Shown piece by piece: positions 29,542 to 30,798 of a stretch of DNA of 58,844 nt. The notes under the pieces were generated by a model, which made no database searches, was not told where the DNA came from, and was given only the letters and a program-made list of their open reading frames with translations. Location of the stretch: NCBI GenBank assembly GCA_004299305.1, contig SCPZ01000028.1, positions 1 to 58,844 on the forward strand, read 5' to 3'. Each line of letters begins with the position of its first letter. The first letter of the stretch is position 1. The position numbers and the translations under genes were made by a program. The DNA is from Methylobacter sp. GTDB taxonomy: Bacteria > Pseudomonadota > Gammaproteobacteria > Methylococcales > Methylomonadaceae.

Positions 29542-30798
29542 ATGAATAACAGGTGTGAGTTTTTTAAATTTCAATTTTCTTTAAGCGGCTTTGAGCGAAG
29601 TGGGCGGCGCTGTGTGTTGCCGTGCATCACGCTGCTACTGCTGCTGCTGTTAGGCAGTGTTCAACCGGTCTTTGCCGCGCCGACCACGCCGACCAGCGAT
29701 TTTATCGATAACCAAGACGGCACGGTGACGCATAAGACGACCGGGTTAACCTGGATGCGCTGTGCGATAGGGCAAACGTGGACGGGGTCAAGCTGTTCAG
29801 GGACGGCAAGCACTTACACTCGTCAGCAAGCTGGTGCTTTAAAGCATAGCTTTGCCGGTTGGCGCTTGCCGAATATTGCTGAATTACAGACGATTGTAAA
29901 ACGGGAAGCTATTAATCCCGCGATTAACACCACAGTATTTCCTAGTACGCCTAATAATGATTTTTTTTGGTCGTCTTCGCCTAATGTTGGCCATGCCAGT
30001 GGCGCTTGGAGTGTTGATTTCCACAATGGCGTCGTCTACAGCCGCCTCAACCGCTACAACAGTTTGCCGGTTCGGTTGGTTCGCGCCAGTCAGTCCTTGG
30101 CTATTAGTCTTTCTACCCCTAACAAGGACTTTGCCGATAACAAAGATGGTACCGTCACTCATAAACGCACCGGATTAGTCTGGCAACGTTGTTCTGTTGG
30201 GCAAATATGGACAGGGTTAACCTGCTCAGGCACAGCCGATAGCTACACCTACGAGCAAGCTATTGCCTTAACCGATAGCTTTGCCGGTCACAGCGATTGG
30301 CGCGTACCCAATGCCAATGAATTAGCCAGTATCGTAAAATACGATGCGTATTCCCCTGCGATTAACACCACGGTATTTCCTAACGCGCCTGACAATTCGT
30401 TTTGGTCGTCTTCGCCTATCGTTGGCAATACCCATTACGCTTGGTATGTCAGTTTCTACGATGGCGGCGTCAGCGGCAGCGTCCGCGGCAACAGTTTGCC
30501 GGTTCGCTTGGTTCGCGCCAGCCAGTCCATTGCTTATTGGCCTGCCATAACAGTCATAAAAAATGGCACAGGTACAGGCACGGTGAGCAGCAATCCTAAA
30601 GGTATTACCTGCGGGACGACCTGCATTAACGGCTTTTCGTCCGGTAAGAAAGTTACGCTCAGCGCCGCGCCCGATGCCAATTCGCTTTTTGTGGGCTGGG
30701 AAGGCGATTGTAGCGGTATACAAACGAGCTGCACCGTTACGGTCAACCAAGGCAAGTACGTGACTGCTGTGTTCGAGAGTATCCAACCGCTTCCTTAA
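29542..30798 (+). CDS. Secreted two-domain DUF1566 protein, likely DGR target
   Basis: The 418-residue protein has a signal peptide (hydrophobic core about 28-42, cleavage near FAA), two tandem DUF1566/Lcl-type C-type-lectin-like domains (about 52-190 and 194-332), and a C-terminal bacterial-repeat domain (about 340-415, ending GKYVTAVFE). Each DUF1566 domain ends in a segment followed by NSLPVRLVRASQS. There the two copies differ almost only at codon positions 1 and 2, most codons being NNC or NNT, as expected for a diversity-generating retroelement variable region. No reverse transcriptase is in the window. A surface-binding role is inferred. ATG 29542 is chosen over a TTG one codon earlier. 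Confidence 0.85.
   Translation: MNNRCEFFKFQFSLSGFERSGRRCVLPCITLLLLLLLGSVQPVFAAPTTPTSDFIDNQDGTVTHKTTGLTWMRCAIGQTWTGSSCSGTASTYTRQQAGALKHSFAGWRLPNIAELQTIVKREAINPAINTTVFPSTPNNDFFWSSSPNVGHASGAWSVDFHNGVVYSRLNRYNSLPVRLVRASQSLAISLSTPNKDFADNKDGTVTHKRTGLVWQRCSVGQIWTGLTCSGTADSYTYEQAIALTDSFAGHSDWRVPNANELASIVKYDAYSPAINTTVFPNAPDNSFWSSSPIVGNTHYAWYVSFYDGGVSGSVRGNSLPVRLVRASQSIAYWPAITVIKNGTGTGTVSSNPKGITCGTTCINGFSSGKKVTLSAAPDANSLFVGWEGDCSGIQTSCTVTVNQGKYVTAVFESIQPLP
29983..30096 (+). other. Putative DGR variable region 1
   Basis: Variable codons run from about 29983 to 30060, followed by the conserved AACAGTTTGCCGGTTCG stretch and CGCGCCAGTCAGTCC, which could serve as the initiation-of-mutagenic-homing end. Variable codons in order include CAT GCC AGT GGC, GAT, CAC AAT, GTC TAC AGC CGC. 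Confidence 0.65.
30415..30528 (+). other. Putative DGR variable region 2
   Basis: This is the counterpart in the second domain. At matching codons it reads AAT ACC CAT TAC, AGT, TAC GAT, GTC AGC GGC AGC, then the same conserved AACAGTTTGCCGGTTCG stretch. It is one codon shorter than region 1 just before the conserved end. Confidence 0.65.

Follow-up and report, generated by a model that had tools for sequence, protein, structure and literature searches.

Two putative retroelement-diversified variable regions in a tandem Lcl_C protein of Methylobacter sp., matched by a template in a related genus

Introduction

Diversity-generating retroelements (DGRs) act through an established mechanism that would also account for the gene described here: a reverse transcriptase (RT) acting with Avd reverse-transcribes an AAY-rich template RNA, making errors at its adenines, and the resulting cDNA replaces the variable region (VR) of a target gene. 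In this work we analyze a gene with two probable VRs on a 58,844-nt contig of Methylobacter sp. (SCPZ01000028.1, assembly GCA_004299305.1), likely a methane-oxidising bacterium. This stretch, hereafter the window, is the whole of contig C42 of the organism's own genome, G000 (4.49 Mb, 144 contigs), and its target gene encodes two tandem Lcl_C (PF07603)/DUF1566 domains, which have a C-type-lectin fold.

Several described systems come close to this gene. DGRs with DUF1566 targets, such as that of Stenotrophomonas sp. SKA14, are reported in PMC6642488, whose counts include 31 DGRs in which a single target open reading frame (ORF) holds several VRs. The window gene shares the DUF1566 target with these systems, for which several VRs are described for few templates, but unlike them its genome yielded no RT or template. 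Treponema denticola isolates carrying VR genes without RT and without template are described in PMC4891356; as in that account, targets here are left without a DGR core and recognised through the templates of relatives, but the T. denticola case lies within one species, whereas here the template belongs to another genus and two VRs occupy one protein. For nanoarchaeal partial DGRs without an RT, the account in PMC4372165 reads the VRs as fossils or as remotely diversified. Adenine-directed VR change at sites without an RT is common to both cases, which differ in that those hosts are archaea and their targets are described as having no known relatives. Remote VRs diversified in trans, some matching the template at all non-A sites, are reported for Thiohalocapsa PB-PSB1 (PMC10907252), and remote variable proteins for cyanobacteria, where one Nostoc-type paralogue, all3226, is read as a remnant (PMC7517822). 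Remote VRs are likewise found here, and the full non-A matches of PB-PSB1 resemble those of the relative G210 described below; unlike the window gene, the remote targets in those two accounts are attributed to DGRs within their own genomes.

Results

An initial annotation of the window, made from the DNA alone, had proposed two tandem DUF1566 domains with DGR-like variation at 29983..30528. Profile searches bear out both domains and add one C-terminal Flg_new_2 domain; the proposed range is roughly right, with template alignment extending the VRs slightly further. The target gene and its parts are as follows.

29542..30798, + strand: target gene (ORF list and profile search; start codon judged by eye at ATG 29542, the listed ORF starting at TTG 29539)
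29719..30084, + strand: Lcl_C domain 1 (profile search)
29965..30093, + strand: variable region a, VRa (template alignment, approximate; exceeds the template by one codon)
30148..30516, + strand: Lcl_C domain 2 (profile search)
30400..30525, + strand: variable region b, VRb (template alignment, approximate)
30616..30783, + strand: Flg_new_2 domain (PF18998), residues 360-415 (profile search)

Each Lcl_C domain thus ends C-terminally in a VR, as in C-type-lectin-type DGR targets, and the conserved 3′ end is seen. The protein is probably secreted, judging by eye from a signal-peptide-like N-terminus.

VRa and VRb differ in 16 of their 24 aligned codons, with 13, 8 and 2 differences at codon positions 1, 2 and 3, against 20, 20 and 39 over the remainder of the domains, where 48 of 96 aligned codons differ (Fisher p = 5e-4). 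The third base is common to 14 of the 15 VR codons showing a change at position 1 or 2, for a simulated mean of 5.4 (P = 5e-6; codon-pattern P values derive from 200,000 codon-usage simulations), and to 9 of 27 codons differing at positions 1-2 outside the VRs. The annotated pattern, with changes almost only at positions 1 and 2 while position 3 stays C or T, has two small exceptions, the pairs AAT/ATC and GTT/GTC, which differ at position 3. All 30 codons at the 15 VR sites with a change at positions 1-2 end in C or T (expected 24.2, P = 4e-4). Taken alone, C/T-ending codons discriminate weakly: most clear VRs lie only about 2-6 codons above expectation, and those of G192 (1/2), G016, G240 (1/3) and G229 (C3 and C52) lie near or below it.

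The same contrast appears against related genes. A homologue with 78% DNA identity in G001, of the same genus, differs from the window gene 24/19/8 times by codon position in the VRs and 50/47/113 times in the remainder (p = 6e-7); for the paralogues on contigs C24 and C47 of G000 the counts are 26/20/6 against 89/81/125 and 31/24/13 against 106/96/182, respectively. Third-base agreement for G001, C24 and C47 is 25/29, 28/32 and 25/37 inside the VRs and 49/85, 53/120 and 49/142 outside them; the outside values exceed the simulated means of 24.7, 34.2 and 38.9 because the genes are related, yet they remain below those inside the VRs.

The AAY-rich template predicted by the annotation exists in another genus of the same family. 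At G206:C153 a complete DGR comprises, in order, an Lcl_C gene, Avd, template, a REP-tyrosine-transposase gene, RT and a second Lcl_C gene. Its template, FWSSSPNVGNTNNAWNVNFNNGNVNNNNRNNSLPVRLVRASQ, lies near the RT and the Avd-like gene and carries the AACAGTTTGCC end that the annotation had named; the Avd match scores 22.3 bits, under the NCBIfam cut-off of 80, yet spans nearly the whole model. With this template as a mask, taken from G206 and not from the gene's own genome, differences between VRa and VRb fall on 25/36 A sites and 3/88 non-A sites (p = 1.3e-14), in support of the annotation's reading of adenine-directed mutagenesis. In gapped alignments, VRa matches the template at 86/95 non-A bases and is changed at 19/38 aligned template-A sites, and VRb at 86/93 and 19/36. 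Gapped non-A matches of other VRs of G000 are 88/96 and 82/96 (C24), 83/95 and 88/99 (C25) and 68/89 and 77/91 (C47), while those of C15 fit a second G206 template (78/88 and 76/89). In the ungapped core, non-A agreement reaches 52/55 for VRa (C42a), 54/55 for VRb (C42b) and 54/55 for C24a, followed by C47b and C25b (51/55 each), C24b (50/55) and C25a (41/55). Under the same mask, the window and G001 genes differ at 18/36 A and 7/89 non-A sites in one VR and at 21/36 A and 14/88 non-A sites in the other, with 97/726 differences at codon positions 1 and 2 outside the VRs; A-site changes in the VRs thus appear to postdate the split of the two lineages.

The template pattern matches 6 of 237 family genomes, and A-specific template/VR pairs were found at 5 loci of 4 genomes among 27 loci searched. 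One pattern match, at G031:C45, proved to be an Lcl_C variable region and not a template. A phage-borne template was also considered and rejected: 78 viral stretches carry a template-type pattern, yet among the five best templates listed per VR the closest viral one agreed at 39/52 non-A bases, where G206 reached up to 54/55.

Two relatives bear on diversification in trans. G210, whose DGR is located at C37, was examined on seven further Lcl_C contigs among the matches listed, with VRs outside the motif used left uncounted. Seven remote VRs on four contigs (two each on C106, C31 and C74, one on C21) match its own template at all aligned non-A bases. On C106 and C31 both VRs lie within one reading frame, and the encoded proteins share 60-61% identity with the window protein across about 300 aa. 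In G206, the protein on C148 is 69% identical to the window protein over 283 aa, and its remote VRs match at 98/99 and 96/97 non-A bases; remote C335 matches the second template at 93/94. The match of the G210 two-VR proteins to their own template at all non-A bases points to diversification in trans, so that two-VR proteins of the window type are, as judged from these alignments, trans targets in both G206 and G210. Agreement is lower for four G210 VRs on C15 (two), C16 and C84, which match the template at only 84-87%, and C218 of G206 fits no template well (64/87). G210 C106, G206 C148 and the window's VRa show length variants of one codon; slippage on an AAC run would fit them. Upstream of the G210 DGR, a pmoB-like protein was noted by eye, in keeping with a family that appears to consist of Methylomonas-like methanotrophs.

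In G000 itself no machinery was found. The annotation's statement that the window holds no RT or template repeat was borne out, and the search it had proposed for the rest of the genome found neither across the 144 contigs. RT searches of G000 by Pfam, by a relative's RT protein and with a profile built on seven DGR RTs (E<=1e-20; 6 of 35 first-look candidates scored) gave none; an RT-protein match at its locus L017 covers a 29-residue stretch and was taken for repeat sequence. No Avd was found in G000 by a profile built from four of the five genomes with credible matches (5/13), G024 being the single independent control. Both profiles do find RT and Avd in relatives. The whole genome, searched for a template by pattern only, gave no match with <=2 mismatches (a shorter form of the pattern did find templates in relatives), and no template/VR pair was found in the window or six other G000 loci. 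G001 likewise yielded neither a DGR RT profile match nor an Avd. Of the two observations that the annotation held would jointly speak against a DGR, the absence of RT and template is thus found in G000, while free variation of orthologues at third positions is not seen in the G001 homologue.

Lcl_C domain pairs occur on seven contigs of G000. Contig C25 of G000 aligns to the Lcl_C gene pair of G206:C153 with 77-78% DNA identity, but its two genes stand about 100 bases apart, where in G206 about 3.6 kb holding Avd, template and RT lies between them. This arrangement reads best as a DGR after loss of its Avd-template-RT core, the alternative being an Lcl_C pair that may never have had one.

The freshness of the VRs was gauged against a consensus of G000 domains, 6 of 14 being compared at about 89 non-A sites. 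VRa, VRb and C24a deviate at 2, 1 and 3 non-A sites, respectively, the window pair supplying two of the six sequences and so pulling the consensus toward itself; four G206 VRs do not deviate from their template at any non-A site. With the consensus caveat, the window VRs rank by these counts among the freshest in G000. A comparable case is G188, a two-contig genome with three Lcl_C VRs (L256, G188:C2): the two of equal length differ 10/11/0 times by codon position, with 14/14 third bases common, the third being left out for its length. Its sole RT match is a 444-aa frame scoring equal to 444-aa copies in G032, which we take to be of group II type, and the 35 genomes matched by the DGR RT profile do not include G188.

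Among 60 relatives and G000, Lcl_C was present in 26/61 and an RT of some kind in 38/61. Across 237 family genomes, 87 carry Lcl_C at E<=1e-15, and the DGR RT profile matches 35, 18 of them at a cut of 190 bits, which was our own choice. Nine of the 87 Lcl_C genomes have a DGR RT at 190 bits, 7 match more weakly and 71 give nothing at E<=1e-20, an upper bound on the RT-less remainder since most family assemblies are drafts. The excess of C/T-ending codons is likewise not shared by every Lcl_C gene. Relatives of the window protein occur in 76 of 72,556 plasmid records and relatives of the G210 RT in 127 phage records (five named Bordetella), all at <60% identity. A sequence search of solved structures returned one match, a weak one (E 0.96).

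Other observations concern the target genes and the DGR locus. VR-bearing heads are joined to different tails among G000 proteins: the two-Lcl_C protein of C24 (L018, 414-3440) is fused to a PGAP1-like alpha/beta domain, and that of C47 carries DUF11/CARDB instead. G031, which has 17 Lcl_C domains but gave no RT match, holds an array of Lcl_C gene pairs at C45 (L088). The RT frame of G206 (L184 1138-2955) spans 605 aa, against 488 aa in G210, and is open, with repeat-like sequence seen by eye. A REP-associated tyrosine transposase-like gene stands between template and RT at L184 3008-3538 (NCBIfam match), L080 4089-4622 and L185 1648-2166 (both called by eye), and C9 of G000 (L017 9999-10577) holds a stretch with 79% DNA identity to the L184 gene.

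Discussion

We consider it highly probable that the window VRs are true DGR variable regions that were diversified in trans until recently and are now orphaned in the assembly. The gene would be a remote target of the DGR type that is intact at G206:C153 and G210:C37. With one VR at the end of each Lcl_C domain, two presumed ligand-binding faces would have been rewritten separately, and the Avd-template-RT block has apparently been lost in G000, leaving the target genes behind. We infer the operation of this mechanism in the window lineage, a real and fairly recent loss, and ligand binding by the protein. The annotation had left the choice between diversification in trans and a relic, which was the right pair of options: trans applies to the G206 and G210 proteins, and for G000 a relic is likelier than ongoing trans diversification.

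Several points weigh against this interpretation. The matching template is that of another genus, with 7 non-A sites at which it departs from the G000 consensus, and the template alignments left template-A mismatches unpenalised, favouring the template where gaps were placed; the codon-position comparison of VRa and VRb is independent of that lean. Other G000 VRs are more drifted, C24b, C47b and C25b with 9 non-A deviations each, and C47a matches the G206 template at only 68/89 non-A bases. The C37 domain of G000 that was tested has no C/T excess (21/27, expected 22.6), and the Lcl_C domains of this genome are not all recent DGR targets. DGR activity in the strain was not observed, the comparisons being among assemblies with one genome per species, and an RT cassette could be missing from an assembly of 144 contigs.

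That last point carries the strongest rival, in which the system is still active and RT, Avd and template persist in the cell or in part of the population. The closeness of the window VRs to their own consensus at non-A sites would suit it, and PMC10907252 reports a disrupted assembly RT with an intact variant in long reads. We nevertheless regard it as unlikely: separate searches found no component in a genome rated 99.99% complete, G188, a genome of two contigs, also has fresh-looking VRs and a sole RT match that is taken for group II type, and the active VRs of G210 show zero non-A deviation from their template. Acquisition of the gene already diversified from a DGR-bearing relative, by a lineage that never used a DGR on it, is less probable still. 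A template match that crosses genera speaks for it; Lcl_C pairs on seven G000 contigs with VRs fitting two template types, the layout of C25 as a DGR without its core and the homologue in the same genus speak against it.

The remaining rivals concern how the variation arises. Gene conversion among the Lcl_C copies of G000 could draw on at least six related VRs, but the longest common run of mutated A sites among six of them is 4, for a column-shuffle mean of 3.2 (P = 0.26), and on this run-length test it was set aside as very improbable. Ordinary positive selection on ligand-contacting loops, with no mutagenic retrohoming, has hardly any probability in our view. C-type-lectin loops are the expected sites of ligand contact, but selection on amino acids would not hold third bases constant, as they are in 14 of 15 codons, and the differences sit on template-A sites defined in another genus; the codon pattern and the outside-template test both contradict it.

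Orphan VRs have published precedents, to which the window gene adds another case. It illustrates that DGR targets can be recognised from raw sequence without their RT, and an outside template exposes separate rewritten regions in both C-type-lectin domains of a single protein. Such genes escape surveys that begin with the RT; the authors of PMC8144416 note that remote targets would go undetected by their approach. For the methanotroph family as a whole, we advance tentatively, as a possibility we rate below even, that target genes are permanent while the RT-Avd-template cassette comes and goes, a transient mutator that, once gained, acts in trans on dispersed receptors before being lost again. 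If so, fixed yet recently diversified receptors would remain even in near-closed genomes. With 71 of 87 Lcl_C genomes giving no DGR RT match and 9 carrying one, the family could therefore serve to study the gain and loss of hypermutation.
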